64,000 nt of DNA from Simmondsia chinensis. Its lineage: Eukaryota; Streptophyta; Magnoliopsida; Caryophyllales; Simmondsiaceae. The stretch is taken from NCBI GenBank assembly GCA_018398585.1, contig JAGTTD010000015.1, positions 3,105,001-3,169,000 of the forward strand, read 5' to 3'. Shown here piece after piece: positions 1,724 to 59,057 of this stretch (positions are counted from its first letter, which is position 1; each line of letters opens with the position of its first letter). The position numbers were made by a program, and so were the translations under genes. The notes under the pieces were generated by a model. It did not search any database and was not told the DNA's origin. It saw only the letters and a list, made by a program, of their open reading frames with translations.

Positions 1724-1940
1724 CCATGACTAGATCTCCAACTTTGCAGCAATTAGTCTTGTGCTTGTAGCCTAGATCATAACATAACAGGATTTCACGC
1801 GTGGTCAGGGTTCAGGTTCTACCCAACCGTGAACCCAATCTTTTACGTAAATTAATATTGAATTAGGAGTAACAAAGGAATTAAGTAGTACTAATGAGAT
1901 AACCAATGCTACACTTAGGGTGCTAAGATAGGTTATGCCT
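1724..1940. other. No gene seen between copia remnant and palindrome
   Basis: AT-rich sequence without an open frame. It may be further LTR sequence of the left palindrome arm that has no partner on the right, because another element sits at the right arm's outer end. Confidence 0.5.
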
Positions 1941-2309
1941 TTAGACTAGTTCATTACCCTAAACCCTAATTTATATATTAACCCAAGCTTAAAGCTTGTA
2001 GCCTAAGTCCTTCAAATTAACGTTCTAAGTAAAATATAATAACGGTATATGTGTTAAGCTACCCAAAATTCACTCCCTAAACTAAGCTCAATTAAATTGA
2101 CACATTTACTTTATATTCAATTTTATTAATTTAGCCAACAATTTATTCAAACAACAAAAAAAATCCAAAAATTCAAATTGCTCGTTAACCACTAAGTCTA
2201 ACTTAACACGATTCCCTGTGGATACGACCCGTATACCCGACAAAGCTACACTATCTCGTACGCTTGCGAGTAGACGGTTTTAAAACACACTTTAAAATCA
2301 CATCAAGTT
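1941..2309 (+). repeat. LTR 3' part of the left-arm gypsy element
   Basis: Non-coding sequence directly upstream of a primer binding site, and therefore in the LTR position. It matches the reverse complement of 10725-11092, including the stretch 'tacgacccgtatacccga' before the site. No second copy (3' LTR) is recognisable 3' of the protease region in either arm. Confidence 0.6.
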
Positions 2310-2311
2310 TT

Positions 2312-2328
2312 TGGCGCGTTGCCGCGGA
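2312..2328 (+). other. Degenerate tRNA-Asp primer binding site, left arm
   Basis: 'tggcgcgttgccgcgga' is one deletion and one mismatch away from TGGCGCCGTTGCCGGGGA, the complement of the 3' end of plant tRNA-Asp that primes Athila-like Ty3/gypsy elements. It sits about 350 bp upstream of the gag start. Confidence 0.8.
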
Positions 2329-2677
2329 ATCGGTAGGCAAAGTTGATTAGAAATTAACGAGTTATTTTCTATTTTTTTGATTTTTATTTCTATTTTATTT
2401 GTTTTCAAAAAAAAAGAACCAACTTATTTTTTCATTAGATTTTTGTTTTATACACAATTTTTATATAGTCTTTTAACTCCCTCTTTTACATAATCTTTGA
2501 TAAAATCTTTTAAAATCCTCTTTACCCGATTTCAAGATTGTTTTTAATTTTTATTTTCATTTTATTTTGTTTAAAAGAATTTATTCATTTTTCAATAGTT
2601 CGTTTTTATGTTTTTTTCATTTCTCGTTTATTTTATTTATTTATTTAATTTTTTTTATTTTAATCAGTTTTATTAGT

Positions 2678-4042
2678 ATGGCTGATTTCGCACCACGCAC
2701 GATTGGGGACCACTTCATTCCCCAAACGTATGTCGCACCCACCGGGGTTACGTTACCTGCCGTGGGTAATGTCAACTTCGAGCTTAAACCTGAGATCAGC
2801 AACATACTTCCCATTTTCTACGGGAAGCTAACTGAGAGCCCATATGAGCATCTTGATGTATTTATGGAAATTTGTGAAACTTGTCACTATCAAGGTGTCT
2901 TGACAGATGCTGTTAGACTACGCCTTTTTCCATTTTCGCTAAAAGACGCAGTTAAGAGGTGGTTTCAATCATTACCCAGGGGTGAAATCACCACTTGGAA
3001 TGACCTCCAACAACTCTTTCTAGTCAAATTTTTTCCTAAAGCCAGAACAATGGCTATTAAGCGCGCAATAAATAGTTTTCAACAAAAGGACCACAAGCAA
3101 TTTCACGAGAGTTGGGACAGGTTCAAGGAGCTTCTTAAAAGCTGTCCCCACCACGGGTCTTCCAAGTGGGCTCTTGTGCAGAATTTCTATGATGGTCTCA
3201 CGGCTTCCAACAAGCAAATGGTTAATGCTTCATACGAGTAAGCATTTAACCAACAAAATGAGGGCGAGGCGTGGACGCTATTTGAGTGCCTCAACGAACA
3301 CTCTCTCGACCAAGCCTCTTTTGTGAGGGTAGTTAAAGGGGACACAAGCGGTGTCTACTAAGTAGCACCTACCGATGACATTAACCTTCGACTGGACGCC
3401 CTTAGCAGGAAGATGGATCAGCTTATGAACTTGCATGTGTATCCTACTAATGTGTGCCAAGTCTATGCAGCTGAGTTATCGAGTGGTACTACTCCGTATG
3501 GCATTTGTTCGGGTGAGGACCATTTTGTGCTTAATTGTTTATATGCGTCACAATTTTTCAAATATGTACAGGAACAGGTTCATACAGCTCAAGGATATTC
3601 GGGAAATAGCGACCCGTTCTCCAACACCTACAATCCTGGGTGGCGCGATCATCCGAACTTCTCGTGGAAGCAAAACGCCAATCATAATCAACCCATGAAA
3701 CAACAAGAACCCGGCTTTGTAGGTAACGCGCACCCTCCCATTCTGCAGGGAGGGCACATGTATGATACTCGACCTCACTCCAATGCTACCCATGATAACC
3801 CTCCTTCCCCACCTCCAGGATATACTTCACAATTTCAAGAGCGTATGCTCTACTTTATGGAAGACACCACACAACTGGTTCGGTCTCACTCTCAGTCTAT
3901 AGCTAGATTAGCAGACCATATAGGACAATTGGCCCAAGCACTTCACAAGCTAGAGGAAGAGAGGTTACCCTCCCAACCTCTCACACTTCCAGTAGGGTCA
4001 ACTAGCTCTAGCCCAAACTTGCCCCCTCACGAGCAAGTTTGA
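2678..4042 (+). pseudogene. Gypsy (Athila-like) gag, left arm, disrupted
   Basis: Retrotransposon capsid protein. The start at 2678 (MADFAPRTIGDHF) is preferred over the upstream ATG at 2567, because 2567-2677 encodes a low-complexity Phe-rich stretch in the AT-rich leader and the right arm also has its start at the equivalent site. The capsid core includes LRLFPFSLKDAVKRWFQSLP and TASNKQMVNASYE. Stops at 3239 (TAA) and about 3359 break the frame, then it resumes to 4042. The zinc knuckle reads YGICSGEDHFVLNC, so its first Cys is lost (the right arm keeps it). The C-terminal part is Pro/Gln-rich. Homologous to the minus-strand gag at 9123-10432. Confidence 0.88.
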
Positions 4043-4045
4043 GTT

Positions 4046-5027
4046 GTGTTAGTGTCTAGGGAGGGGAACCTTCGAGATGTGGAGGTCAAGGTTGAGAAGG
4101 AGAGCATGGACCCATCTCCCACTACTGACAGAGAGGGCCCACAAGGTAGGTTTTCCGAACCTACTATCCCTTTTCCTTCAGCCCTTAGAGGACCGAAGAA
4201 GAAGGATGACCAAAAGAGGACTGTGCTCATAGACTTATTTAAGGACGTGAAGATCAACTTACAGTTGATTGAAGCTATTAAACACATTCCTATATATGCC
4301 AAGTTCCTCAAGGACCTTTGCACCAAAAAGAAGCGCACAAGCGCATATCCCGAAAAAGGTCCGGCTCACCGAGAAGGTGAGCAGTATCTTAGTATCAGGC
4401 GCCCCACTCAAGTTTCGAGACCCCGGGGCTTTTACAGTTCCATGCGTCCTAGGAGAGTGTTACACGAGCAGAGCCTTGCTAGATCTAGGAGCGAGTGTAA
4501 ACCTCATCCCTTACTCAGTTTTTTGGGAATTAGGTATATGAGACCTTAAGCCAACGAATGTTACACTTTAGTTGGCTGATAGGACAGAGCGAGTACCTCA
4601 TGGGGTAGTGGAAGATGTACTTGTCAAGGTTGACAAGTTTGTCTTCCCTGTTGATTTTCTCGTCTTATATATAGACCCTACTCCTAGGCAAAAGCACAAC
4701 GCTCCCATTATTCTAGGTCGACCGTTCCTAGCAATGGGCAACGTTGTGATTCACTGTAGGACGGGAGTGTTGGAGGTTTCTTTTGGAAATATCAAGGGCA
4801 AATTGAAGGTCTCGAACTTTGTTCGACACCCTGAGACTGAGGACGAGTTGGAATGCTACAGGGTTGATGATATTGACCCTTTGGTAGAGCCAGGTAAGCC
4901 TGATTCTACTAAAAGTGACTATTGTAATAGTGTCCCTGTCTGTGTCGATAGCTGTGCTTCATCACCTATACTTAGTAGGCTAGAGATTTGCGACCTCGAT
5001 GCTGGTAATGTTTTTCTTCTTTGCTAG
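4046..5027 (+). pseudogene. Gypsy linker and retropepsin-like protease, left arm, disrupted
   Basis: The linker (4046-4350) is acidic and includes IDLFKDVKINLQLIEAIKHI. The protease core LLDLGASVNLIP lies near 4476-4510, with Asp at about 4482; DLGAS is the plant Athila/Tat form of the retropepsin active site. The frame stops at 4541 and resumes at 4572 with the flap and C-terminal part (VDKFVFPVDFLVLYIDP, then IILGRPFLAMGNVVI). After about 5027 the frame ends where reverse transcriptase should follow. No RT, RNase H or integrase is found before the post-pol block at 5160-5185. Confidence 0.87.
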
Positions 5028-6500
5028 TCACGGGTCTAGAAATGCTGTTGGGTTTGGAGATCGTCCCTACTGGGTCAACCTGAGTTCTATGGCAGACACT
5101 GCCTCGGATTTTGGTTGATATTGTGCTCTAAACTGCGTCCGACTGAAGACGTTAAACGTAGCGCTCTTGGGAGGCAACCCAACCTACTTTTAATTTTGTT
5201 TTTCCACATGAACTCTCTCAATTGTAGGTCCTTTTATTATTTCTACCATGCTAATTTTGTTTCTCTTTTACTAAACACTTGTATAATCCCTACTTCTAAC
5301 AAGTCCATTTAGTATTCTGTCTTCCATGTCTTCGATTGCAGCTTGCTATTTCTGTCTTTCCTTTTTGGATTTGCTCGCCACGCATAGCTGAATATGCCAT
5401 ACCTCAGGTCATCTCTTTCCTTTCCTTGCTTATATTTACTTTCGTTGATTTGCATTGAGGACAATGCAAGGTTTGGGTTTGGGGATGGCAGACGAGAGCC
5501 AACTTTGTTTGTCCTTTAAGCTTAATTTGGCATAAATTAGCTACATTTTTTAAGGCATAAATGAGTATAAGGGTGTAGTCCAGTTCTGTGATGTACTTTG
5601 ACGATTAGAATGATTATGAGACGAGATTATTGCTAGATTAGACTTTTGAATCTATATTTTTGTCTTTTAACTAGTTAGTGAGATTATTAATTTTCACCCT
5701 TAATCTTGTAACATATCCTACTGTTTGGGTCAAAATAATGGTAATAATTTTAGGAATAGGAATCCACTATTCTACTTCTAACAATGTTGAAATTAATTGT
5801 ACATTTCTTTATCTTAAGTAACCCCTTAAAAAAAGGAAAAAAAGAAAAAAAAATGTGACTGGTTGGTTCTAGTAGCCCCTGTGTCTCGAGCAAGTAAGCC
5901 CGCAGGGGTATCTTAAAACCTGTTACCTTGAGCCAACTGGTTCGGGAGCTGCCGGTCGAAAGCTCGCTACATGGGCCACAGGGAAAGCTTAAGATGAATC
6001 AACTTTATAGTTACTAAAATAAGCATTAAAAAAAAGGGTATGTGGTAACAGATTAGTTTGTGGATCCTTAAGACTCGAGTCATTAGGTCCATAGGGGTCT
6101 CTTAAAATCTAGTACCTTGAGCCAACTAGATCGGGAGCTGCCGGCCAAAAACTCGCTACATGGGTCTGAGGGAGACACACCTAACCAAGCGAAAAAAGAA
6201 AAAAAAAGAAAAAGAAAAAAAGAAAGGGAGAAAACAAGAGAGAAAAGAGAAGCCTTTTGATTTCACTATTGATTAGCGGTGAAGGGTTATGATAACTTAT
6301 TCTTTTACTTATTACCTTTATGTTTTCTTAAAGTCGAAGGGTTTTGAAGTAAGACGAAGGGGAGAGAAGTTCTAAGATCACTCACTAGTAAAAAGACCTT
6401 AATGACGGCGACTTAAGTTAGAACTAGTGCAATAATAACGTCACACAAAGATTCGCTATTCTCAAGTACACTCTCAAATATGATTGAACAATAATTTTCA
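5028..6500 (+). repeat. 3' non-coding region of left-arm gypsy element
   Basis: It contains 'gggaggcaacccaac' (5169-5183), a motif usually found just after the integrase gene of Athila-like elements, and a polypurine-like 'gtttgggtttggggatgg' around 5472-5489. Two diverged copies of one module follow: 5865-5993 and 6062-6178. Both hold 'ccttgagccaact', 'tcgggagctgccgg' and 'ctcgctacatggg'. They are separated and followed by A/G-rich tracts. No gene. Confidence 0.7.
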
Positions 6501-6621
6501 CAAGTGACCTTGAGGTTAAATGCCTGAATCGACTTTTCCCCTAGTATCTAGCTTAAATCGAATCTTGCTTGAGGACAAGCAAGGTGTGGGTTTGGGGATG
6601 TTGGCACCGTTGCCGGGGATT
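6501..6621 (+). other. Palindrome spacer: polypurine tract joined to a tRNA-Asp primer site
   Basis: The only unduplicated part of the palindrome. It holds a polypurine-tract-like 'gtgggtttgggga' (6586-6598) preceded by 'cttgaggacaagcaagg', and four bases later 'tggcaccgttgccgggga' (6602-6619), a one-mismatch tRNA-Asp primer binding site. In an ordinary element an LTR would lie between these two signals. Confidence 0.75.
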
Positions 6622-8073
6622 ATTGTTCAATTATATTTGAGAGTGTACTTGAGAGTAGCGAATCTTTATGTGACGTTATTATTGCACTAGTTCTAACTTA
6701 AGTCGCCGTCATTAAGGTCTTTTTACTAATGAGTGATCTTAGAACTTCTTTCCCCTTCGTCTTACTTCAAAACCCTCCGACTTTAAGAAGACATAAAGGT
6801 AATAAGTAAAAGAACAAGTTATCCTAACCCTTCACCGCTAATCAATAGTGAAATCAAAAGGCTTCTCTTTTCTCTCTTGTTTTCCCCCCTTCTTTTTTTT
6901 TTTTTTTTTTCTTTTTTTCACTTGGTTAGGTGTGTCTCCCTCAGACCCATGTAGCGAGTTTTTGGCGGGCAGCTCCCGATCTAGTTGGCTCAAGGTACTA
7001 GGGTTTAAGAGACCCCTACGGACCTAATGGCTCGAGTCTTAAGGATCCACAAACTAATCCGTTACCACATACCTTTGGTTTTTAATGCTTATTTTAGTAA
7101 CTATAAAGTTGATTCTTCTTAAGCTTTCCCTGTGGCCCATGTAGGGAGCTTTCGACCGGCAGCTCCCGACCCAGTTGGCTCAAGGTACCAGGTTTTAAGA
7201 TACCCCTACGGGCTTACTTGCTCGAGACACAGGGGCTATAAGAACCAACCAGTCACTTTTTTTTTTTTTTTTCAGGGGTTACTCAAGATAAAGAAATGTA
7301 CAATTGATTTCAACATTTTTAGAAGTAGAATAGTGGATTCCTATTCCTAAAGTTATTACCATTAGTTCGACCCAAATAGTAGGATATGTCACAAGATTAA
7401 GGGTGAAAAATAATCATCGCACTAACTAGTTAAAAGAAAAAAATATGGATTCAAAAGTCTGATCCAGCAATAATCTCATCTCATAAACATTCTAATCATC
7501 AAAGTAAATCTCAGAACTAGTTGACAATAAGGGTCACAAACAACCTTATACTCATTTATGCCTTAAAAAATGTAGCTAATTTAAGCCAAATGAAGCTTTA
7601 AAGGACAAATAGAAGTTCGCTCTCATCTGCCATCCTCAAACCCAAACCTTGCATTGTCCTCCATGCAAATTGAAAAAAAATAAATTCAAGCAAGGAAAGG
7701 AAAGAGATGATCTGAGGTGTGACATATTCAGCGACATGTGGTAAGCTAATCCAGAGAAGAAAGATGGAGGTAGCAAGCTGCAATCGAAGACATAGAAGAC
7801 ATGATACTAAACAAACTTGCTAGTAGTGTAGAAATTAAGAGCGTACAAGTGTTTAGTAAAAGAGAAACAAAGTTATCATAGGAGGGATAATAAACGGATC
7901 TACAATTGAAAGAGAGTTCATGCTAAAATAATAATAATAAAAAATAAATAAAATAAAACAAAACTAAAGATAGGTTGGGTTGCCTCCCAAGAGCACTAAG
8001 TTTAACGTCTTCAGCCGGACACAGTTTAGAACACGAGATCAACCAAAATTTGAGGCAATGTCTGCCATAGAAC
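6622..8073 (-). repeat. 3' non-coding region of right-arm gypsy element
   Basis: Reverse complement of 5028-6500. It contains the same paired modules (6930-7050, 7110-7240), pyrimidine tracts, the polypurine-like site near 7625-7650, and the 'gttgggttgcctccc' block at 7974-7988. No gene. Confidence 0.7.
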
Positions 8074-9098
8074 TCAGGTTGATCCAGTAGGGATGATCCC
8101 TAAACCCAACAGCGTTTCGAGACCCGTGACTATCAAGGAAGGAAACATTACCAACGTTAGGGGCACAAATTCTATCCTACTAGATATAGGTGATGAAGCA
8201 CCACTATCGACATAAACAGGGACACTATTACAATCATCACTTTTAGTAGAATCGGGCTGACCTGGCTCTACCAAAGGGTTAATATCATCAACCTTGTAGC
8301 ATTCCAACTCGGCCTTAGTCTCAGGGTGTCGAACAAAGTTCGAGACCTTCAAGTTTCCCTTGAGGTTTCCAAAAGAAACCTCCAACACTCCCGTCCTACA
8401 GTGAATAACAGCATCAGCCGTTGCTAGAAACGGTCAACCTAGAATAATAGAAGCGTTGTGCTTTTGCCTAGGAGTAGGGTCTATATCTAAGACAATAAAA
8501 TCAACAGGGAAGATAAACTTGTCAACCTTGGCAAGTACATCTTCCACTACTCCACAAGGTACCCGCTTTGTCTTTTCAGCCAACTGAAGTGTAACAATAG
8601 TAAGCGTAAGGTGTCCTATTCCCAGTTCCTTAAAAACTAAGTAAGGAATAAGGTTTACACTCGCTCCTAGATCTAGCAAGGCTTTACTAGTGTAACGCTC
8701 TCCTAAGATACATGGAAATGTAAAAGCTCCGGGGTCTCAAAACTTGGGTGGGGCACCTGACACTAAAATGTTGCTCACCGGACCTTTTTCGGGATATGCG
8801 CTTGTGCATGCTTTTTTTTGGTGCAAAGGTCCTTGAGGAACTTGGCATACATAGGAATGTGATTAATAGCTTCGATAAATGGTAAGTTGATCTTCACGTT
8901 CTTAAACAAGTCTATGAGTTTAGTCCTCTTTTTGTCATCCTTCTTCTTCGGTCCTCTAAGGGGCGAAGGAAAAGGGACAGTAGGTTCAGCAAGCCTACCT
9001 TGTGGGCCCTCCCTGTCAGCAGTGGGAGATGGGTCCGTGCTCTCCTTCTCAACCTCGACCTCCACATCTTGAAGGTTCCCCTCCCTTGACACTGACAC
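8074..9098 (-). pseudogene. Gypsy linker and retropepsin-like protease, right arm, disrupted
   Basis: Minus-strand homologue of 4046-5027. The linker is read at 8775-9098 (IDLFKNVKINLPFIEAINHI). The protease core LDLGASVNLIPYLVF begins near 8676 and continues without the left arm's frameshift to IDPTPRQKHNASIILG near 8434. The frame is then interrupted and resumes at 8388 (VSFGNLKGNLKVSNFVRHPE). Like the left arm it runs straight into the post-pol block with no reverse transcriptase or integrase. Confidence 0.87.
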
Positions 9099-9122
9099 AA
9101 CTCGAACTTGCTCGTGAGGGGG

Positions 9123-10432
9123 CTAGTTTGGGCTAAAGCTAGTTGACCCTACTGGAAGTGTGAGAGGTTGGGAGGGTAACCTCTCTTCCTCTCGCTTATG
9201 AAGTACTTGGGCCAATTGTCCTATCTGGTCTTCTAATCTAGCCATAGACTGAGAGTGAGACCGAACCAGTTGTGTGGCGTCTTCCATAAAGTAGAGCATA
9301 CGCTCTTGAAATTGTGAAGTATATCTTGGAGGTGGGGAAGGAGGGTTATCATGGGTAACATTGGAGTGAGGTTGAGTCACGCGTTACCTACAAAGTCGGG
9401 TTCTTGTTGTCTTGTGGGTTGATTATGATTGTCGTTTTGTTTCCACGAGAAGTTCGGATGATCGCGCCACCCAGGATTGTAGGTGTTGGAGAACGGGTCG
9501 CTATTTCCCGAATATCCTTGAGCTGTATGAACCTGTTCCTGTACATATTCGAAAAATTGTGACGCATATAAACAATTAAGCACAGAATGGTCCTCACCCG
9601 AACAAATGCCACACGGAGTAGTACCACTCGATAACTCAGCTGCATAGACTGGGCGAACATTAGTAGGATTCGCATGCAAGTTCATAATATGATCTATCTT
9701 TCTGCTAAGGGCATCCAGTCGAAGGTTAATGTCATCGGTAGCTGTTACTTCGTAGACACCGCATGTGCCCCCTCTAACCACCCTCACAGAAGAGGCTTGG
9801 TCGAGAGAGTGTTCGCTGAGGCGCTCAACTAGCGTCCACGCCTCGTCCTCATCTTGTTGGTTAAATGCTCCCCCGCATGAAGTATTAACCATTTGCTTGT
9901 TGGAAGCCGTGAGACCATCATAGAAATTCTGTACAAGAGCCCATTTGGGAGACCCGTGGTAGGGATAGCTTCTAAGGAGTTCCTTAAATCTGTCCCAACT
10001 TTCATGAAATTGTTCCTGATCCTTTTGTTCAAAATTGTTAATTGCACGCCTAACAGTCATAGTTCTGGCTTTAGGATAAAACTTGATTAGGAACTTTTGT
10101 TGGAGGCCAGCCCAAGTGATGATTTCACCTCTCGGAAGAGACTGAAACCATCTTTTGGCTACGTCCTTTAACGAGAATGGAAAAAGACGTAGCCGAACAG
10201 CATCAGTTGAGACACCTTGATAATGACAGGTTTCGCAAATTTCTATAAACGCATCAAGGTGCTCGTATGAGCTCTCAAGCGGCTTCCCATAGAAAATGGG
10301 AAGCATGTTGATGATCTCAAGCTTAATCTTGAAGTTAACATTACCCACGGCGGGTAGCGTAACTCCAGCGGGTGGGACTTATGTGTGGGGAATGAAGTGG
10401 TCCTCAATCGTATGCGGTGCAAAGTTAGCCAT
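9123..10432 (-). pseudogene. Gypsy (Athila-like) gag, right arm, nearly open
   Basis: Minus-strand gag. The ancestral start is ATG 10432 (MANFAPHTIEDHF), followed by an in-frame TAA near 10381. The frame is then open from 10348 to 9377, 323 residues, covering the whole capsid core (LRLFPFSLKDVAKRWFQSLP) and an intact CCHC zinc knuckle, CGICSGEDHSVLNC. At 9377-9380 a deletion relative to the left arm brings a stop; the Pro-rich C-terminus continues at 9123-9380. It is better preserved than the left copy but still not functional. Confidence 0.88.
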
Positions 10433-10706
10433 TCTAAAAAAATATAACTAAAACAAAAAATAAATAAATAAGTAAAACTAAACGAACAAAGAAAAATAAA
10501 ACAGAAAAATAAACTAATGAAAAATAAATTTTTTTTAAACAAAGAAAAAAATAAAATAAAAAAATAAAACAGTAAAATGAAATAACTAAAAATAAACAAA
10601 AAAAAAAGTAAAGTAATTTTTTTTATTTATTTAGAGTTTTTTCTTAAACAAAAAAAATAAAAAATAAAATAACTTGTTAATTTCAAAATCAACTTGGCTT
10701 ACCGAT

Positions 10707-10724
10707 TCCCCGGCAATGGCGCCA
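10707..10724 (-). other. tRNA-Asp primer binding site, right arm
   Basis: On the minus strand, TGGCGCCATTGCCGGGGA, one mismatch from the complement of the plant tRNA-Asp 3' end. It marks the end of the right-arm LTR (10725-11092). Confidence 0.85.
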
Positions 10725-11092
10725 AAAACTTGACATGTTTTAAAAGTGTGTTTTAAAACCGTCTACTCGCAAGCATACGAGGTCATTGTAACTAAATCGG
10801 GTATACGGGTCGTATCCTCAGGGAATCGGAGTTAAGTTAGATTTTGTTATTAACGAGCAGTTGAAATCGAGTTTTGAGTTGATTTAAATGATTTGTTAAC
10901 TAAAATAGCAAAATTGACGATAAACTAAAAGTGTCAATTTAATTAAAGTTAGTTTAGGGAATGAATTTAGGGTAGCTTAATACGTATCCCGTCATTATAT
11001 TTTACTTAGGACGTTAATTTGAAGGACTTAGGCTACAAGCTCTAAGCCTAGATTAATATATAAAGTAAGACTTAGAGTAATGAACTAGTCTA
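10725..11092 (-). repeat. LTR 3' part of the right-arm gypsy element
   Basis: Reverse complement of 1941-2309, adjoining the primer binding site. Cut at its outer end by the element starting at 11099. Confidence 0.6.
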
Positions 11093-11098
11093 AAAGTA

Positions 11099-11300
11099 GA
11101 ATAAATTACCAAACTGGCACACTTTCGAAAAAAATTTACCAAAATGGCACAGTTTCAAAAATATTTACCAAATTGGCACACTTTACTGTAGCAGAATCAA
11201 CGTACCCCGTTTAAAACGGCGTACGTTGATAATTTTTTTTTTTTTTTTTCAAATGGGGGGACGCCATTTCAAACGGCATCCCCCCATCCATTTTTTTTTT
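11099..11300 (+). mobile_element. One end of a foldback Mutator-like element
   Basis: It begins 'gaataaattaccaaactggc' and repeats 'accaaa(a/t)tggcac' three times before 'actttactgtag', then turns into a CG-rich stretch with 'aaacggcgtacg'. This is the same terminal layout as the complete element at 29881-30757. The partner end was not found, so this copy is truncated. Confidence 0.65.
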
Positions 11301-15081: not shown

Positions 15082-15870
15082 AAAAATATAAATTATAATA
15101 AATAATAGTTAAAAAAAATTTTTAAACTTTTTTGAGTTGTTTGGCATACTGGCACAAAACAAAAAAAAAAAAAAAAAAAAATTTAAATTTGTAGCATATC
15201 AGATAAAAATTTTAGCAAAATGACACATGCATCATTGTGCCACCCCCAATTGGCACATTTAACCAATTTTTTTTTTTAGTTCAATTTCAGAAGCCCAATA
15301 AATGGGGCTACCTTTTTTTTATTATTATTTTTCTGTTTTAATTTATATTTTTATATTATTTTTAATTAATAAATATATTAAATTTTATTTTAAAATATTA
15401 ATAAATTTTTATATATTAAATTTAGATAATTTTTTCTATGTAATTATTCATATTAAGTTACTTTTTACCAACATAAATCCTAATTTTTGTAATTTTAATT
15501 CATTTTCTTAACATAGTTAATCATATTTTGAATCTTAAATATTTTTAATGTATTTTTGTCATTTGTCTTGAATTAACTCAGATAATTTAAATAATATTAA
15601 CTATTAAAATAAATAAAAAATATAAAAAAAGGGTTTAAAATAGAGAGGAGAAGCCCTTTTTTTTATGATGAGATAAAAATGGGACTTGGAATGGGATAGC
15701 CTAAGTGGCGCATTTACCAAATATATATATATATTTTTTTAAACGTTAGATATGCCACATTAAGTGGCGGATCTAACAAATATAGTTTTTTTTATTTTTA
15801 TTTGATGTGATGGAAATTGAAGATTTTGATTTTAGGTTTGGATAAGAAATATATTAAAATTAAATTAATT
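15082..15870. other. No gene seen; AT-rich with 'ggcac'-type repeats
   Basis: It contains an A20 tract near 15162-15181, phrases resembling the foldback-element ends ('ggcatactggcac', 'aattggcacattta') and a TA run at 15719-15733. No coding frame. Confidence 0.45.
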
Positions 15871-15980
15871 ATTTTTATAGTTTAATAATTGGATTCATAC
15901 CTGGGAGATCAACAATAGAAACCATTCATCTCTTACTGCGGACGATAGAACAATACAGGGAGAGACAAAAGGATCACCAC

Positions 15981-17036
15981 ATGGTCTTCATCGATTTGGA
16001 GAAAGCATATGATAGAGTGCCAAGAGAGGTACTGTGGAGAGTGTTGGGAAGGAGAGGCATCCCGATGCCTTATATTCAGGTCATTAGGAACATGTATGAA
16101 GAGGCACATACTAATGTGTGCACAGGGGAAGGGGAGACAGACACTTTCCCTATTACAGTAGAGGTACACCAGGGCTTTGCCTTGAGTCCCTTTATGTTCA
16201 TTCTAGTGATGGATGAGCTCACAAGACATATCCAAGGGAAGGTACCTTGGTGTATACTTTTTGCAGACGACATAGTTCTGGTAGGGGAATCCCGAGCGGA
16301 CATAAACAAGAAGCTGGAGCTATGGAGAGGCGCATTAGAATCGAGGGGTTTAAGGATTAGCAGAACTAAGACCGAGTATGTGGAATTCAAATTCGACCAT
16401 TCCACCGCGACTAGCACCGAGGAGGTTAAGATTGAATCAGAAACCGTACCAAATAAGGAGAGCTTCAAATATCTGGGATTCATGATACACCAGAATGGTA
16501 AAGTGGATGAGGATGTCAGCAACAGGATTAAAGTAAGCTGGCAGAAGTGGAGGATGGCATCCGGAGTGCTGTGTGATAGAAAGTTCCCGCTAAAGTTAAA
16601 GGGTAAATACTATAGGACGGTAGTAAGACCGGCTATGCTATATGGGGCAGAGTGTGGACCAATGAAACAAAATCAAACACATAGGATGAAGGTGGCAAAG
16701 ATGAGGATGCTGCGCTGGATGTGTGGCCACACAAGGAAGGATAAGATTAGGAATGATGTGATACGAGGTAAGCTGGGTGTAGCCTCGATCGAGGATAAAT
16801 TGAGGCAGCACCGCCTAAGATGGTTTGGACATGTTAGCAGAAGACCAACTACAGCCCCAGTCAGGAGGTGTGAACAGCTTCACATGGCGATAGGCAGAAG
16901 AGGGAGGGGAAGACCAAAGAAGAGTTGGCTGGAGACGATTCGTCAAGACCTAACCCACCTAAACCTAAGAGAGGAGATGGCCTCAGATAGGGCACGTTGG
17001 AGGACTAGCATAAGGGTAGCGGAGGTGGCAGAGTAG
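15981..17036 (+). CDS. RTE LINE reverse transcriptase C-terminal part
   Basis: A 351-residue frame (the reading frame extends upstream to about 15894) covering RT motifs from the DLEKAYDRV block through FADD to the thumb and the C-terminal Arg-rich region (GRRGRGRPKKSW). In an intact RTE element this enzyme primes reverse transcription at a nicked target. Here the N-terminal endonuclease is absent, and no host function is suggested. Confidence 0.85.
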   Translation: MVFIDLEKAYDRVPREVLWRVLGRRGIPMPYIQVIRNMYEEAHTNVCTGEGETDTFPITVEVHQGFALSPFMFILVMDELTRHIQGKVPWCILFADDIVLVGESRADINKKLELWRGALESRGLRISRTKTEYVEFKFDHSTATSTEEVKIESETVPNKESFKYLGFMIHQNGKVDEDVSNRIKVSWQKWRMASGVLCDRKFPLKLKGKYYRTVVRPAMLYGAECGPMKQNQTHRMKVAKMRMLRWMCGHTRKDKIRNDVIRGKLGVASIEDKLRQHRLRWFGHVSRRPTTAPVRRCEQLHMAIGRRGRGRPKKSWLETIRQDLTHLNLREEMASDRARWRTSIRVAEVAE

Positions 17037-17126
17037 AGTAGGGCGGGGAGTGGCTGGTAGTTTAAGATCCTTAGGCAGGCATAACCTAAAGTGTAACACT
17101 TATAGGCTAGCTTAGTCTCTGATCAT

Positions 17127-17187
17127 ACTTCTTCTTCTTCTTCTTCTTCTTCTCCTCCTCCTTCTTCCTCTTCTTCCTTTCTTTTAC
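17127..17187 (+). repeat. (CTT)n microsatellite in LINE 3' UTR
   Basis: Runs of 'ttc' then 'tcc/ttcc' inside the RTE LINE's untranslated region. Confidence 0.9.
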
Positions 17188-17244
17188 TTTTTCCTCATAA
17201 TGCATTGGTAATTGATGGGTGGTTTATCTGCAAGCACTCAACTA

Positions 17245-17370
17245 CTTCAGGTTGGGGGTCCCCGGAAACAGTCTCCTTTCCAGCTGGAAGGGGTAAGGCT
17301 GCGTACATCACCCCCCCAGACCCTGCTTTCTGCGGGAGCCGCAAGGCATTGGGACTGTTGTTGTTGTTGT
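17245..17370 (+). repeat. RTE LINE 3' module shared with the 5S-headed SINEs
   Basis: Order of conserved words: 'caggttgggggtcc', 'ggaaacagtctc', 'ggggtaaggctgcgtacatc', 'ccccagaccctgc', 'gcgggagcc', 'ggcattggga', (TTG)n. The same order makes up the 3' half of the SINEs at 18938, 28067, 54905, 62156, 58788 and 59058, and of tails at 50163 and 60928. Confidence 0.88.
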
Positions 17371-17388
17371 ATTTTTATAGTTTAATAA

Positions 17389-18553
17389 ATACATTATGTA
17401 TTAGTATTTAATTCCGTGTATTATATTTTATAATTGTAGCACTATCACAAAGGTTTTGGGTTACGGTTAAGGTTATGCTTAAAAGCATGAAAATTAAGGG
17501 GGAGAAATTATACCAAAGAGAATTCTTATTTTCCTTCTTTTGTCGTAAGTAGGGGTGCAAATAAATTGAATGTTCGATAAACTACTCATATTTGAAATCG
17601 ATTACAATTCATTCACTTTTGTTATAGGGGTTCAATAGCTTATTGAGTAAAGTTTAAGTAGGCTCCATAAGTTTAATGAGTCGAGTTCGAACAAAGAAAT
17701 GCCCTGCTCATCAAGCGAAGCCTCTATTACAATGATGCTTTGTTCTAATTTCTCGATTAAAAAAATTGTCTCATCGCTGCTAGATCACAATCTTTTAAAC
17801 ATTTTGAGTAGAATACAGTGAAAGACTATTTGTGGGAATTTTTTTGCAAAAATTAGAGTACAAGCCCCAAAAAAACATATTAGTGCAGGACATAGCGCAA
17901 AGGCAAACAACCAGAAACACCAAGAAATCTAATGCTGTAAGTCACTTCCTGCAATCTAGGCTCCAAACACACAATACCAATCGACATATCCAATAAAAAA
18001 TCGACATATCCAATAAAGACGCCCCTAACGATGTACAAATAATCAAACTCATGATGTAGCAATCTCATAAATTTTGAACCAAAAGTTACAAAATCCAACA
18101 TTCCTTTATATGTTGTCATAAAAATAATGTAATGGAAGATCAATAACTTTACAAGAACTTCATGAATCACCATTATTGTTCATTCACAAAATGTCAATAA
18201 AATCAAACTTCACCACCTTAACAAACACGAGACTTCATCGAAACGGAATTAGAAGATGGTCATATACGCCTGACTTTACTCCTGGTTTTTTAGAGATCTT
18301 GGTTGTCGACCCTTCGACTCATGAGCTTTCAGCTCCAACAACTCACAAACACAGAAGAAAAACCGAAAAATAAAGGAAAACGGAGATATGTTGTCATCAC
18401 AAGGTGTTCTTATATTGTTGAACTTTTCTGTAATTGTTTATACTTTATTCTTTTGGTCGGTATGATATCTGTCAATGAGAAAGTTGATTCCGCTGTATCA
18501 AGTGACCAGATTAAATTTATACCTTTAATTGTCAAATAATAAGTTCTAAAGAA
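17389..18553. other. Intergenic / probable 3' flank of the TBL gene
   Basis: No coding frame with a recognisable domain. It contains a 'taggggtgcaaata' fragment near 17550 resembling a GAGCTCGA-element end, and a 21-bp direct repeat of 'aatcgacatatccaataaa' at about 17979-18018. The TBL 3' UTR should lie at the right end on the minus strand. Confidence 0.5.
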
Positions 18554-21500
18554 TCATGAGGTAAGAAGAGCAGCATAGAGAAGTTGATTCCAAGTATCGG
18601 GCAAACCAGGGAGGCACCAGTGACTACAGTCGGTACCGAGATGATCACCACTGTAAGAAGCAGGGTGTGCATCTTTCCTTAGCTGTGACAAGGTCGTAAT
18701 GTCTAGCAAGTAAACTGGTTTCTTCATCCCTCTTATCACTTTCGTCACTATGTCAGTTGCTAGCGGTGAGCCTGCAGGGTACGTCGATCCTGAGAGCGGT
18801 CCTGCCTCCCCGCTACAGCTCTTCGACGTTGCACTCCATTCCCTGCCACTGTTATAATATTCGTGCTATTATCATGGATTCAAATAAAGGGTAAGTGTTA
18901 TGTAAACGATTTCTAGTTGACAGTTATGTGATTGATTAACCAAAGAGAGCACCAATACGCCGTCACCGGATCCCATTAGAACTCCGAAGTTAAGCGTGCT
19001 TGGGCGAGAGCAGTACCAGGATGGGTGGCCTCCTGGGAAGTCCTCACCCTCAGGTTGGGGGCACTAGGAAACAGCCTCTCTTCAGGTTAACACCCTGAAG
19101 AGTGAAGGCTGCGTACATCCGCCCCTCCCAGACCCTGCGTAGGCGGGTGCCTTTGAGGCGTTGGGTATGTTCCTTAGTTATGTGATTGATTGTTATGCGA
19201 TGATTCTATGTAATCTCATTCGCAAAGCATGCGTGCATTTTATTTTGGCTCGCGTGAAAAATTAATAAAGACATTAAAATTTATACATTAAACTTACATG
19301 GGAACCGATTACATTACGTTCACAACACCTTACTTTGGTAGTAACGTGACTGTAACCATGATCCGGTTCAACGGTTATGACTATCTTAAATGTGTCTTCG
19401 AAAGGGTGGCCTTAGTGTGATTAGCTAGATTATTCCATTATAAATTTTACTAAGGGCTTGTCTAGCATCATTATTATTTGTGACTTTTTATTTTTGAGAA
19501 AACTAAAAACTTATGTTTTAAAATGATTCGTTTTCTTGTTTTTATTTTTACGTTTTCTATTTTCACTAGAACTTAGAAAAACAAAAACCCCAAAAAGTCG
19601 CTTTCAAAACTAAGTTATTAGTTTATTAAAAACAAAAAAACTGCAAACAGTGAGAGTTGATCTCTCGATTTTTGACAGCATAAATTTTTTTTCTCTCTTT
19701 TCATACTTGTAGGTATGAATTACGATGGGGTCTAGGGTATTTAATGTGGGTTTCCGTTATTTTGGCTCTTGGTGTTGAGAGTAGGTATCTTAGATTTGTT
19801 TATGTGTTTCTTGTTATTTTCTTTTTTCCCATGTGTTTCTTGGGTCTCTATGTAAAACGTCAGCTTTTGTATTGTGAGTTTTTCTCGCTAATTATCGGGG
19901 GGCAAAAAAACATCCATGTTTAGAAATTAGGGAGGAAGAAGGAAAGTACTTGTAATGGGTAGGAGAGATGCCTTGGAAGAAGACCTTGGTCCTTGAAGTA
20001 TCCACATTTTGGTCTACCCATTGAGCCCAAGTGCTCATCCCTCTGTAAAATGCCATCAATCGGTCCATGTCCTTCAACACTTTTCCCCCATCTTCTATGT
20101 AATCCCACGGCTGAGATGCGCCCTTGTGGGTCCACCAGTGCCACGTGTTGAAGATCAACACATCGGAGTTCAACCAAGTGGTGCCGGCCCGGATGGAGTC
20201 GAGCTTGAGGACTCGACCGATGGGTTCGCTTACTATGTCCACCAGGTATGGTGTGCGGTACAGCACCATACTCACTCCATACTCCTGCACACCCATTTCG
20301 TTATATAACAACAATGTTATTATCATGATAAAATTATTGACAACAGAGTAAATTTGAAAAAATTATATCGAGCTAAATGAGTTTGTAAATCTCTATTTGA
20401 ATTCTCTAACTGAGTCAAGCCATGAGACAAATGTCATTTAAACAGCTATTCAAGCTACTAAGAAGCCATCCTCTACACAGCACTGAGCAATTAACATTAG
20501 GGGTGTAAACAAGCCAAGCCGAACCAAGTCAGGCACCCTCTTGTTCGAACTCGAGCTCGATAAGGCTTATCGAGCTTGAGTTAGATCCAAGCTCTTATCG
20601 AGCTTTCCAATCTTTGTTCGAGCTGGGTTTGATAAGATTTTAGTGTGTTTGATACTCAACTTGGCTCGTTAGGCTTATTGAGCTGAGTCAAGCTCTTTAT
20701 CGAGCATTAAACCAGACCGAGATCGCTATCAAGTTGAGTTCCTTAATAAGTTAAGCTTTTCAAGTTACTATCGGGCCATTATTCACGAACATTAATGAGC
20801 CGAGCACCTTCTGTTCGAACTTGGCTCGTTAAGCCTATCAAACCTGTTCGAACTCGGTTTGATAAGCTATTGAGCCCTCATAATGAACACCGATAAGCCA
20901 TAATCGATTTTAAATACTAATAGTTCATTGAATTTTCAATTTGTTTACACCCCTAATTAACAAGCTAGTAAAAGGCTCATTATGAGCTCTGGACACACTC
21001 TTAGCCAACTGTTCACAAAATTTAACTAATGAAGCACCTTTGGTCCCAGTTCAACAAACAAGAGCATTAATTAATTATCAACACGTGTTAGTTCATGTTC
21101 AAATGCTTGATTCATTTGCACCGATAATGGAAATTATTTGGTCATTTAAAAAAGAAAATTTATCACTTAGGTATCCTGATATTTTAATATATATAATAAG
21201 GTATCCTAAAATTTAAAAAATTTATCACTTAGATACCCCAAAGTTTAAAATTTTATCAATTAGGTATCATTTTTTAAAATTATATAGATTTTTTATTAAA
21301 AATTGCTAACGCAGGACATAGTTATAGCAATATATAGGTGTCTTCTATCATAATATTATAATTTTCTATCATAAAATGCTAACATCCCACTTTATTTCAC
21401 TCATATGGCAATATCTTCCGTCATAATTCAGTGACTTTTTTCCGTATTCTATTTGATTTTCATTGAAAAAATTGATATAGCTCATACGTATTATTATAAT

Positions 21501-28047: not shown

Positions 28048-28066
28048 TATAACATTATAAAGTGCA

Positions 28067-28321
28067 AGGTTCATTTATCAGACACTAAGGCACCAGATCT
28101 TATTAGAACTCCGAAGTTAAGCATGCTTGGGCAAGAGAAGTATCAGGATGGGTGACCTCGTAAAAAGTCATCGTGTTGCCAATCCTATAAGATCGGGGGT
28201 CCGCGGAAACAGCCATTCGGCAGGGTTACACCGTGAAGGGTTAAGGCTGCGTACATCCATCTTTCCAGACCTCGATTATGCGGAAGCCCTTGAGACACTG
28301 GGCTTGTTGTTATTGTTGTTG
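28067..28321 (+). mobile_element. 5S rRNA-headed SINE, full length
   Basis: Flanked by 19-bp direct repeats 'tataacattataaagtgca' (28048-28066) and the same with one change (28322-28340). The 5S-derived head (gaactccgaagttaagcatg, 'atgggtgacctcg') is followed by 'cgtgttgccaatcctataag' and the RTE-like tail ending in (TTG)n. 255 bp. Confidence 0.92.
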
Positions 28322-28341
28322 TATAACATTATGAAGTGCAT

Positions 28342-29880: not shown

Positions 29881-30757
29881 GATTAAATTACCAAAGTGGC
29901 ATATTTTGCAAAAAAAATTACCAAAATGGCATAGTTGAAAAAATATTTACCAAAATGGCATACTTTACTGTAGCGTCAATAGGAAACGCCGTTTCAAACG
30001 GCGGTCGGAGGCGTCACCTAACGGACGCCGTCCGAAACGGCGTACAGAACGGCGTCCGTTAGGAGCCGTCTAACGGACCCCGTTTCAAACGGCCTCCGTA
30101 CGCCGTTAGACCACACACCTTTGTATAAAGTAGAAAAAATTAACAATCCTCCTAACTTAATTAACAATAAAATGATAAAATAAAGTAGAAAAAAAATTTA
30201 GTAGAGTTACATTATTTAATGTATAAAGTAATAAAAAGGAAAAAAATGCACTGTAATAATAGATTACAAAAACCCCCTGATGTAATAAAAAAGGGTGTCG
30301 ATGTGATCCGGGATATGTTGCGTTAATCCAAACTGACGCAACACTCTATCAGGGCAATGCAGCTCTACAATGCCAAAGCATATCATTGGTAATCTATTAT
30401 TACAGTGCATTTTTTTCCTTTTTATTACTTTATACATTAAATAATGTAACTCTACTAAATTTTTTTTCTACTTTATTTTATCATTTTATTGTTAATTAAG
30501 TTAGGAGGATTGTTAATTTTTTCTACTTTATACAAAGGTGTGTGGTCTAACGGCGTACGGAGGCCGTTTAAACGGCGTCCGTTAGGAGTCGTCTAACGGA
30601 CGCCGTTTAGGTGACGCCTCCGACCGCTCAACGAACGCCGTTTGAAACGGTGTTTCCTATTGACGCTACAGTAAAGTGTGCCATTTTGGTAAATATTTTT
30701 TCAACTATGCCATTTTAATAATTTTTTTTGCAAAATATGCCACTTTGTAATTTATTC
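29881..30757. mobile_element. Foldback Mutator-like element with arms of about 385 bp
   Basis: Exact 9-bp flanks 'tacaaaaga' (29872-29880, 30758-30766). The arms 29881-30266 and about 30372-30757 are near-perfect reverse complements. Each starts GATTAAATTACCAAAGTGGC or a close variant, has three 'ttaccaaaatggca' repeats, then a CG-rich block of 'aaacggcgtccgttag' words, then A/T-rich DNA. About 105 bp of unique spacer remain, with no transposase. 877 bp in all. Confidence 0.9.
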
Positions 30758-34600: not shown

Positions 34601-36916
34601 CTACCAATGTAATAGATAAGTTCTTTTTTAAATAAATATGCAAGCATTCTGGTTTGTAGAAAAACACATTTCTACGTCACATAACCAAACACTACATTGT
34701 AAAAAAATACATATTTTAGAAACATCTTATTGAAACAGATAAATACAAAACAAGATAAGCTAAAAGCAAATGAAGCAAATTACACCCTAAAACATTTTCC
34801 TCATAATGCCACATATCTGAACCGGTCTTCTCTTTAAAAGAAAAGAATTAGCAGCAGTATGTAATAGATCCAACAGGCTATGAAACTAAAAATCCATATC
34901 AAAAGATCAAAACCATGAAAAGTATATAAACACATCATTAAGTCATGTAAGAACTGTGCCAATACCAGTTAAAACAAACAGATACCTAATCAATTATACA
35001 ATACCAGAGTTGAGCAGCTGAACAAGACGAACACGGAATACGCATCTAATATGTAGGAATTACCACGAAAACAAATAACACAACTTTGTCACGAACAAAG
35101 TACTAGAGTAAATGTAAGGAGCTTCTACGGCTACATTTTAGCAACACCACTAAATTGAAGTAAATATTACAGAGCAACTAGCCAGCAAAAGGGGGAAGCA
35201 GCAACACATGGAATCATCCACTACCAGTTAAGCAATTTGCATCCAAGTAGCTCTCACATACCTGAACCAAACATTCCACTCATAATTCAATTCATCATTG
35301 AACAATAAAACAAATACAAAAGCTAAACCTACAGGCTAGCGAATGCAATACAACAACAACAAACAGTCCCAGTGCCAGAAGGATTCCTGTCAAAGCAAGG
35401 CGGGAGGAGGAGTAGGAGGAAAGAGGAGAGGGGGGGGGGGGGGCACTTGAACCATTTGGTGAGTACTCGAATTGAGCCATTACTCCCAGGGCTGCCCACT
35501 AGCTCTTTATGCCACAACTTACACAATCACAAAAATGAATCCGAGTGGACAGTGGCTACAACCCAAGGATTAGCTAATGTATGGGCAAATAGCCCTGCTC
35601 ACCCGGTTACAGAAAACAAAAAGGTTTGCAACAAAAAAAAAAAGGTTTTGAGAAACTAAATACCAGACTTTAGGAACTATTTTTTCTTGCTTTTGGCTTT
35701 CTATTTTTACAAAAATAAGGAAACAATTGAAAACACAAAACCTAAGACAAAAAATATCATTTCCGAACTAAGGTTTTAAGTTTCTAAACAACCAAAAACG
35801 GGGAAACAAAAAGCACTATTGAACAAGCCCCAGTGAATGAATTCATATAAATTCAAATGAGAGAAATAAGGTTATATTTTCCAAAAGTTATACCAACTGA
35901 CAACCCATTCTGTGCAACAACTGAGTATGTCACATTATCAGTAATACAACTAATAGAACTAATGACAGCAGGCAAGATTTGTAGAATATGAACCAGGTCA
36001 ATCAAAAGGCGGTTACACATCAATTAGAAGCCCCGCAAGAGCATTGTTCAAGACATATTAATATACATTAATTGGGAAAATCAACAAAATACGTTAATGT
36101 TAAACGCATGCGTAGAATATTAAAGCAATGTTTTCAGAGCCTGTTCACGATCCCAGAAAAGGCAGTAACTTTAAACAATCAAGTTTCTCATATAAAGATA
36201 ACGTGAATGAACATGGTTCCAGGAGGAAAAAAATAACTTGCCAGCGTTCTGTTTTAGATTAGAACTCTAAAAATTTCTTACTTTATATAATCTTTTCAAG
36301 TATGCATACATTTTTTTTCATAATTGCAGATTAATCATCCTGTAACTTTTCTTGGTAAAATTACAAGAGTCAAGTTCCTATGTAATTTTCCCAAGCCCAA
36401 CGTCCCAATCCCAAAGTGTATTAATTATATTCTGATAATGCTTATATCAATAAGCAACCTAGATGCAAAACCTAGAAAAATGAATTTTCCTAAGGGCTAG
36501 TTTGGTATTACATTTTATTATCAATTTTCGGTTTTGAGAAGCCAAAATCCAGGTCTAGGAATAAGTTTCTATAGTTCTTAATTCTAATGTTCAGTTTTTA
36601 TCAAAGTCTTTAAAAATTGAATATAGGCATAATAAAAAATGTTCCACAGACTGATTTATGCTTTCTCGAAACCCGAAAATTGAAAAAAGAAAATGCTACC
36701 AAATAAGCCTTAAAACTTATCAAACATAATGCAGAAGAATAATTCAGCAGATTCTCACCATAAACAAAATCAAATCCTCCTGGAAAGGCAACATCTGATT
36801 TCCTACCAGACATAACAATCAAAATCAACATCAGATTTCCCACAAATCAAAAGAAGATTCCATGAGGTTGAAAACTTGAAATCTGGGTTATCAAAGACAA
36901 GACCGGCATCTCTAGT
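34601..36916. other. No gene seen; one LINE/SINE tail and hAT-like scraps
   Basis: 35351-35406 (minus) carries a short 3'-tail fragment of the RTE/SINE family: 'ggcactgggactgtttgttg'. 35431-35445 is a G15 run. 35660-35830 and 36490-36720 resemble hAT-like MITE halves. No open frame of interest. Confidence 0.45.
35351..35406 (-). repeat. RTE LINE / SINE 3'-tail fragment
   Basis: On the minus strand 'cttgctttgacaggaatcct', then 'tctggcactgggactg' and TTG units, equivalent to the last 55 bp of the tail at 60928-61063. Confidence 0.6.
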
Positions 36917-37470
36917 GATACCCAACTGAAACTGAAAACAAATGACATGTTACCAAGCATAGAAGCCCGGCCAAGAATTAGAGTTCAAAGTCATGCTTGC
37001 CTAACAAAATTGTAATCAACCTGAAATTCTGATGGGAGAAGGCTCTAGAAAAGCTTGGGCTGAGCATGGCTCAAGCTTTGCTAGTTTATGTAGAAGAGCA
37101 GCACAAACTTGTTAGGCAAAATACCCAAGTTTTGGGTTTGATTTAGGTACTAATTTGTTGATTTCAGAAAAAAAAAATATGAAGAGAAGAGAGAATGAAA
37201 CACAGTAACACTGTAGTTTACGTGGAAAACCCTCAAATGAGGGAAAACACGCGCCATAAACCCTATCAGATTCCCAACTCAAACTGAAAACAAACAGCAT
37301 GTCATCAAGCATACAAGTCTGGTCTACAGTTAAGAGTTCAAAGTCATGCTTGCCTAACAAAATTGTGATCCACCTGAAATTCTTATGGGAGAAGGCTCCT
37401 GAAAAACTATTGCTGAGCTTGGCTCTCGCTTTCCTAGTTTATGCAGACGAAAAGCACAAACTTGTTTTCT
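36917..37470 (+). repeat. Local direct duplication, two copies of about 200 bp
   Basis: 36917-37116 and 37271-37470 share 'caaagtcatgcttgcctaac', 'aaaattgt(a/g)atc', 'gggagaaggctc' and 'gcacaaacttgtt' in order. The 150 bp between them contain 'gtttacgtggaaaaccctc', a phrase common in plant LTRs and present in similar form near 57962. Confidence 0.75.
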
Positions 37471-42830: not shown

Positions 42831-42902
42831 GACAATAATAACAAACCCAGTGCCTCAAAAGTTTCCTAATATGCAGGGTCTAAGAGGGTGGGATGTATGC
42901 AG
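42831..42902 (-). repeat. RTE LINE / SINE 3'-tail fragment, decayed
   Basis: On the minus strand 'ctgcatacatcccaccctct' and 'agaccctgcat', then 'gaggcactgggtttgttatt', in the order of the shared tail module. Confidence 0.55.
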
Positions 42903-43497
42903 ACAATAGATTATAATTAAAAATTAACGTATGGAATTAAAGTACAGGTAAGAGACGGAGAACTGGCTTCGTGATGGCTGTAGACCTAATGGATTGAAGA
43001 ACAATCTCAAAACAAGTTATTTTGACCGATCAGTGGTAACATCATTTGCTTTCTTCCAATGGGAACATGCTCTCTTCCAACTAAATAAGCCTATAAACAG
43101 AAAATAAAATAAAAAAACTAAAAACAAGAAAACATCATTCCTCATAATAGAGGTTTTAGTTTCTTAAAAACTAAAAATTACATATAAAAAACAATACCAA
43201 ACAAGCCCTAAGACTTCACGAATTCCAAGTAATATCAAGTTGGTATGTATTAGAGTACAAAATAAATCATGAGCCTTCATCTATCAGCTTAAACTTTTGG
43301 GAACAGATGGAGGATTGGTTTTATACTCTAACATAATCTTCCATGCTAAAAGTGAAATTATGATAAGAATGTGATGCTTAGTTAGGTAGTTTTGGGGAAG
43401 TGCTCTTCCCAGTGTAGTTGCTAATAATCTCTGGCGTTGAAGCGCTTGCATCAAAGGCGCACCTCCTTTCCAGTAATTGTAAGGATTTTGTTTTGGC

Positions 43498-55150: not shown

Positions 55151-55276
55151 TAGGCATTACATAGTACATCATTATAAATGTGCAATATGGCTCGATTTGT
55201 TACTCAAACTCAATACGATTTGTCTTTTTAAGCTAATTGAATATTTTTAATATTTTTAATACGATTTGTCTTTGTG

Positions 55277-58945: not shown

Positions 58946-59057
58946 AGTCAAAATATAAAAATAGAAAATAAAATATCACAATAAATGGTTCACGAAACCT
59001 TAGATTTTAATTTTTCAAATATCAAAAACTGCAATAAGAATATCATAATCATAGCAT

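Follow-up and report, generated by a model that had tools for sequence, protein, structure and literature searches.

A 3′ module shared by 5S rRNA-headed SINEs and RTE-type LINEs in the genome of Simmondsia chinensis

An RTE-type LINE and 5S rRNA-headed SINEs in one window

We analysed 64,000 nt of nuclear DNA from Simmondsia chinensis (contig JAGTTD010000015.1, positions 3,105,001–3,169,000), here called the window, and searched the genome of this plant (831 Mb, 35 contigs). The window contains an RTE-type long interspersed nuclear element (LINE) and six short interspersed nuclear elements (SINEs) headed by 5S ribosomal RNA (rRNA) sequence, which share a 3′ module with the LINE and, judging from their sequences, very probably borrow the copying enzyme of RTE-type LINEs. 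The LINE, a 5′-truncated insertion of a subfamily termed RTE-1, spans positions 15889–17369 on the plus strand (RVT_1, 3.3e-29). It is enclosed by a perfect 19-bp target site duplication (TSD), TATTTTTATAGTTTAATAA, at 15870–15888 and, as a second copy, at 17370–17388 (19/19 match), with a score equalled by 0 of 300 random segments. On the same strand lie the 3′ part of the LINE open reading frame (ORF; reverse transcriptase (RT), C-terminal region), open to its stop at 15891–17036, and the shared module of approximately 122 bases, ending in (TTG)n, at 17248–17369; the TSD surrounds the RT ORF, the module and (TTG)n together. One detail to add to an earlier reading made from the letters alone (the sequence-only reading) is that the LINE falls short of full length: it begins within the RT domain, with Pfam RVT_1 aligned from model position 43. 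The closest solved relatives of the RT are R2 and LINE-1, and among the matches listed (at least 120), named LINE-protein homologs come from Malus, Solanum, Capsicum, Cuscuta, Triticeae and orchids.

An nhmmer search of the window with the LINE end (17101–17375) matched six SINEs with E-values of 1e-13 to 2e-10, bearing out the module sharing and its places as first described. The good LINE/SINE alignment runs from (C)AGGTTGGGGG to the 3′ end, and some local alignments of low quality reach about 35 bases further upstream. The SINEs are approximately 240–255 bp long. Four of them fit Rfam model RF00001 over its entire length (1–120) with 46–69 bits, which confirms the 5S heads that had been proposed, and the TSDs directly border the unit of 5S head and module.

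Two of the copies belong to lineage A: 18938–19175 (plus strand; 5S 18939–19056, module 19052–19175; 68.5 bits; 16/16 TSD at 18922–18937 and 19176–19191) and 54905–55149 (plus; 5S 54910–55027; 55.3 bits; a weak 11/12 TSD, p ~0.08). Lineage B comprises 28067–28321 (plus, with a (TTG)n tail; 5S 28065–28184; 46.3 bits; 18/19 TSD at 28048–28066 and 28322–28340), 62156–62403 (minus; 5S 62286–62407; 52 bits; 15/17 TSD, p ~0.017) and the 5′-truncated 59053–59236 (plus; no TSD found). The single lineage C copy, 58773–58943 (minus), is likewise 5′-truncated; its complete-looking 5S 3′ end adjoins the module, and it has no convincing TSD. Both truncations fall within the 5S head. These two truncated copies, which belong to different lineages, lie in head-to-head orientation with about 110 bp between them, and the cut in the 5S sequence falls at a similar place in both. 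The lineage B copy at 62156–62403 lies just upstream of an ORF (62640–63146) that by eye resembles a papain-type cysteine protease.

The sequence-only reading had all of these elements ending in TTG units. This is true of the LINE and of the SINEs at 28067 and 62156, and the SINE at 59058 keeps such units in decayed form; those at 18938, 54905 and 58788 end in GTATGTTCCTT, GTATGTTGTTTTG and AATGTTGCTTTA, respectively, none of them TTG.

Lineages of the 5S-headed SINEs in the genome

A survey of 20 arbitrary 10-kb stretches (200 kb in total) returned 18 module matches, of which 7 had a 5S head, 1 had an RT and 10 had neither. If this survey is fair, 5S-headed copies number, very roughly, 29,000 genome-wide. 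The 13 5S-headed copies in 264 kb (6 from the window, 7 from the survey) were sorted into lineages by eye. Lineage B, with eight copies, has a junction like GTGTTGCCAACCCTATA followed by AGGTTGGGG and tails mostly of TTG units, and is the only SINE lineage with TTG as its regular ending. Lineage A (three copies) joins CACCCT(C/T) to AGGTTGGGG. In lineage C (two copies), the module is immediately preceded by GTGTTGCACCCCTC, which looks like a complete plant 5S 3′ end; of the three lineages, this one appears most similar to a 5S rRNA joined directly to a LINE end.

TSD scores of surveyed module copies lack a valid control, because random segments could land inside the searched stretch, and they are cited solely for duplications with at least 15 matching bases. 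Two survey copies, L030 and L034, are 5′-truncated inside the 5S sequence with TSDs of 16/17 and 17/19, which is what target-primed reverse transcription would leave. The target duplication of a further 5S-headed SINE (L015), TAGGTTGTTATTGTTGTA, resembles a TTG tail left by an older copy of the module, and this SINE looks like a nested insertion.

A search with the lineage A SINE at 18938 gave 5508 first-look candidates; besides the window copy, 39 full-size places, distributed over many contigs, were scored. Identity to the window copy is approximately 93–100% across the 40 scored genomic copies, and lineage A, the youngest lineage, has spread recently. Its genomic tails consist of TATGTTCC, some with TTTCC or ATGTTCC units. 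Repeated ATGTTCC units occur in the tails of three copies (L006, L089 and L095), which suggests that slippage occurred as reverse transcription began.

The module belongs to the LINE

The protein of the window LINE was searched in its own genome, giving 21310 candidates and 108 scored places, window copy included; that copy aside, these show 85–91% amino acid identity. We retrieved 3′ ends from 40 of the remaining 107 places (list rows 2–31 and ten lower-ranked) and scanned them with a profile built from six SINE modules and zero LINE sequences. The module was present in 39 of the 40 (E 5e-27 to 7e-16), the single copy without a match being L078, and a 5S head in none. The junction mostly consists of close variants of gcactcaactacttC followed by AGGTTGGGGG. 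As one 19-bp TSD encloses both LINE and module in the window, and as the module recurs in 39 of 40 further copies, it is the LINE's own and does not belong to a SINE lying beside it.

RTE-1 3′ ends close in (TTG)n and not in poly(A), which fits the ending of plant RTE elements: in flowering plants, 7 of 7 RTE LINE families have (TTG)n or (TTGATG)n at the 3′ end, and 224 of 233 L1 families have poly(A) (PMC3747384). The TTG tract was recognised in 36 of the 40 copies and is followed by TA in 21 of these 36, a count of the 3′ side only in which the T could equally belong to the tract. In viral and bacterial contig collections, the RTE protein had no locus and scans for the module pattern gave zero matches.

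A second LINE subfamily fits the SINE tails better

The one RT-bearing copy of the survey, L032, carries the module within a 20-bp TSD. Its family, termed RTE-2, has 40 scored places among 4658 candidates, with 84–92% identity when L032 itself is set aside. The module was found by the same profile in all 20 fetched RTE-2 3′ ends, taken from the 20 best-scoring places other than L032, although L116 and L120 have its first ~70 bases only. Upstream stretches match RTE protein in 6/6 fetched, in pieces mostly of 52–74% identity. In L032, two successive stretches (5348–6379) resemble the C-terminus of the RTE ORF, and the entire region is matched by most of the 40 scored places; the end of the RTE-2 ORF thus seems to be duplicated or chimeric.

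Module consensuses were derived from 28 lineage A copies, 7 of 8 lineage B copies (L030 omitted), and 38 of 39 RTE-1 and 16 of 20 RTE-2 copies (odd lengths omitted). RTE-2 is identical to lineage B at 117/127 positions and to lineage A at 109/123; the corresponding values for RTE-1 are 96/120 and 88/116, and the two LINE consensuses agree at 99/120. Scores per copy differ (p 1.5e-5 and 6e-5, values that are optimistic because the copies are related). Within a hairpin loop, 7–8 nt present in RTE-2 and in SINE lineages A, B and C are missing from RTE-1. The boundary AGGTTGGGGG is the same behind two different LINE 3′ untranslated regions (UTRs) and behind 5S, and across RTE-1 and RTE-2, whose 3′UTRs are unlike, the module occurs in 59 of 60 fetched copies and runs to its end in 57.

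Whether another LINE family matches the SINE tail better had been posed as a check by the sequence-only reading. One does, at the subfamily level and within the same kind of LINE. Its proposal that this RTE family mobilises the SINE is therefore supported in so far as the module lies in the LINE and lineage A has an RTE-type signature (below), but is not supported for the family of the window copy, since RTE-2 fits clearly better. On these comparisons, we would name RTE-type LINEs as the driver and an RTE-2-like element as the probable tail donor.

Lineage A insertions have an RTE-type target signature

Insertion sites were examined at every full-size scored place of the 18938 SINE, 40 with the window copy (8 + 20 + 12 loci). 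TSD scores reach at least 10 in 31 and at least 12 in 29 of them, with a median of 18 bp, and the 29 strong TSDs span 15–25 bp. T is the first base in 22 of the 29 and TA the first two in 14; TTT occurs at −14 to −6 in 16, and positions −10 and −11 each hold T in 18 of the 29. The SINE tail frequently has T as its last base (18/29 copies), so that a TSD may be lengthened by chance and then start with T. Under a null allowing such extension into the T-rich tail (expected 0.462 for T, 0.111 for TA and 0.281 for TTT), p-values were 0.001 for T first, 7e-7 for TA first and 0.002 for TTT, uncorrected for multiple positions. In plant RTE LINEs and their SINEs, the TSD starts with T, often TA, and a T-run lies about 10 nt upstream (PMC13295347). 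Lineage A insertions bear this RTE-type target signature.

Module copies without a 5S head

Five more module copies in the window lack a 5S head; the LINE query matched two of these weakly. The insertion at 50164–50426 (minus; nhmmer match 50165–50298) has (TTG)n, a non-5S upstream part and a 15/15 TSD at 50427–50441 and 50149–50163; it may derive from the 3′ part of an element of another RTE subfamily, and its upstream part matched neither RTE-1 3′UTRs nor the upstream part of L032. The copy at 60930–61064 (plus; match 60912–61056) has no established TSD, and a 3′-cut copy at 55271–55356 (minus; match 55278–55443) has none. The last ~70 module bases with a TTG-like tail lie at 42831–42904 (minus; match 42831–42903; E 0.02 with the LINE query, 5e-12 with the module profile), and the last ~50 with (TTG)n at 35352–35401 (minus; match 35347–35401; E 0.04 and 4e-4, respectively). 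In the survey, copy L029:1988, without 5S or RT, has a TSD of 15/16 bases. Upstream parts of the non-5S copies showed no RTE-1 3′UTR match, the one listed (L035:7586) sitting on the module of a neighbouring copy (L035:7281), and they are unlike one another except for short AT-rich stretches.

Origin and mobilisation of the SINEs

The starting points for a model were observed directly: the shared module, its place inside LINE insertions, the 5S heads, the TSDs, the lineage A signature and the better fit of RTE-2. We consider it highly likely that the 3′ module of an RTE-type, RTE-2-like LINE was fused to 5S rRNA and that the resulting SINE RNA is inserted by RTE protein. The module of approximately 125 bases would be the conserved 3′ end of an RTE-type LINE group in this plant, and a 5S rRNA sequence would have been joined by its 3′ end to the module start, AGGTTGGGGG, of an RTE-2-like LINE. 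The simplest route would be that the RT, while engaged in target-primed reverse transcription, changed template from LINE RNA to 5S rRNA. The fusion would combine an internal 5S-type RNA polymerase III promoter with a LINE 3′ recognition end; polymerase III may then transcribe the SINE from the 5S promoter, and RTE protein would recognise the module, reverse-transcribe the SINE RNA and insert it. The lineage A consensus (28 copies) contains no TTTT ahead of the tail.

The module does occur nearby as part of SINEs, and the sequence-only reading had raised the case that a SINE inserted into or beside the window LINE explains its ending. This candidate is refuted by the joint 19-bp TSD around LINE and module, by the 39 of 40 RTE-1 copies with module and 0 of 40 with 5S, and by the 20 of 20 RTE-2 copies, and we give it practically no credence. 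It is unlikely that RTE-1 itself, not RTE-2, gave the tail and drives the SINE: its consensus identity to the SINE tails is 76–80% versus 89–92% for RTE-2 and its hairpin loop is short by 7–8 nt, even though it is abundant (108 scored places) and has the same module and a TTG tail. RTE-1 could still provide the enzyme in trans.

Borrowing might also have run from SINE to LINE, the module being a tail unit in its own right, belonging for instance to tRNA-headed SINEs, that LINEs captured. Module copies exceed recognisable LINE ends, as the 18 survey matches with a single RT illustrate. However, the module is held by 59 of 60 copies of two RTE subfamilies with unlike 3′UTRs, as expected of a LINE's own recognition end, and some of the ten matches with neither 5S nor RT look like 5′-truncated insertions by LINE machinery (such as L029:1988), which makes this direction very unlikely. 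Highly improbable, finally, is insertion of the SINEs by L1-type LINEs or other machinery, with the tail likeness a matter of history. Lineage A tails are mixed and one copy, L094, has an A-rich end, but poly(A) tails are not the rule, and TA-first TSDs with an upstream T-run are as printed for RTE (PMC13295347).

Several points weigh against fusion to an RTE-2-like tail and insertion by RTE protein. Lineage A typically ends in TATGTTCC(TTTCC)n rather than TTG and thus does not exactly reproduce any of the LINE 3′ ends found here. Its sample consists of the best-scoring copies and is not a random draw, and 9 of the 40 have no TSD of score at least 10. Plain binomial p-values of 4e-6 (T) and 8e-5 (TTT) proved too kind, rising to the 0.001 and 0.002 given above. 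The signature was tested on lineage A and judged against the printed rule, and it indicates RTE in general, not one subfamily. RNA structure lends no help: RNAalifold on the first module alignment gave a single weak hairpin, and a stem model (P1–P3) showed no covariation beyond shuffles. In that model, 83% of cells pair versus 40–60% when slid, 161 of 500 shuffles reach 83%, and the RTE-1 rows are one column out of register in P3. Structure was dropped as evidence because of the missing covariation.

Other features of the window

A very long imperfect inverted repeat occupies 1933–11101 (~9 kb; arms up to 1081 nt, 75–95% complementary) and includes long ORFs on opposite strands that look Ty3-type gag-like by eye (2504–4042, plus; 9377–10378, minus). 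The foldback at 29892–30747, with 187-nt arms at 30084–30270 and 30386–30572 (99% complementary) and outer arms at 96%, looks like a young foldback DNA element. At 36917–37466, a unit of ~200 bp occurs twice in direct orientation, 352–353 bp apart and 78–87% identical. The window also holds a UBP1-associated-2C-like gene, whose two top-ranked named matches come from Rumex and Carnegiea, both Caryophyllales, with Sarracenia, Lonicera and Cornus ahead of Beta and Chenopodium.

Comparison with known systems

Tail sharing between SINEs and LINEs, TTG-ended plant RTE elements with the TS SINE, and a 5S/RTE SINE in springhare are already known. We suspect that the module contains the Angio-domain of plant SINEs. 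This 37-bp 3′ domain, characteristic of the Angio-SINE superfamily, lies near the end of many angiosperm SINEs (Seibt 2020, described in PMC9033089). The tobacco TS SINE and potato RTE-1_Stu likewise have about 100 bases of common 3′ end with TTG repeats, but TS has a tRNA head and the Simmondsia SINE a 5S rRNA head (PMC3747384). The springhare SINE Ped-1, paired with BovB, likewise joins a 5S rRNA head to an RTE-clade tail (PMC3747384, Table 1). It differs in being mammalian, and the two very probably have separate origins.

Nishiyama and Ohshima reportedly treated Au-like SINEs and leguminous RTE LINEs in 2018. The heads of Au SINEs are tRNA-like, unlike the 5S heads here. These SINEs and LINEs have their tail in common, with TSDs starting with T and a T-run about ten bases upstream, and the Au SINE ends in a T-run and its LINE in (GTT)n, a difference much like that between lineage A and the RTE elements here (PMC13295347).

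With their 5S head, short, dispersed, multicopy form with TSDs and a 3′ end shared with a LINE, the Simmondsia elements show three traits of SINE3. Such 5S-headed SINE3 elements also occur in fish. SINE3 elements (PMC10886601) have the 5S rRNA head as internal promoter, a role predicted for the head here; they are known from moths (PMC3272025) and Aspergillus (PMC5063351), hosts that are animals and a fungus, whereas the host here is a plant. A 2024 paper cites 5S-type SINE promoters as known in animals (PMC10853983), and a 2022 review derives plant SINEs from tRNAs, its text lacking the term '5S rRNA' (PMC9033089). In the literature searched, through titles and the openings of abstracts, a 5S-headed SINE from a plant did not come up; that search extended to neither subscription papers nor Repbase, and a prior description is possible.

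A plant retroelement with a 5S promoter is known in Cassandra, a terminal-repeat retrotransposon in miniature (TRIM; PMC10853983). Cassandra is a long terminal repeat (LTR) element with 5S inside its LTRs and not a SINE (PMC10853983). Here, TSDs placed directly at the ends of the 5S and module unit do not fit an LTR element, although no separate LTR search was made. The Cassandra 5S promoter has been speculated to come from a SINE3 insertion (PMC10886601). We regard it as decidedly unlikely that a SINE lineage which arose when RTE switched template onto mature 5S rRNA, perhaps on two occasions since lineages B and A/C differ in their 5′ starts and 5S–module junctions, is the missing plant donor of that promoter.

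Published work describes chimeras of LINE-1 and small RNAs that arose through template switching or RNA ligation and, citing Kojima 2018, states that RTE LINEs give rise to new SINEs with tRNA or 5S rRNA (PMC13174262). Simmondsia chinensis offers, in one plant genome, a 5S-headed family, a likely tail donor, a sister LINE that matches worse, graded junctions and recent copies, which together make the rules of RTE tail recognition and the birth of SINEs from 5S rRNA directly testable.

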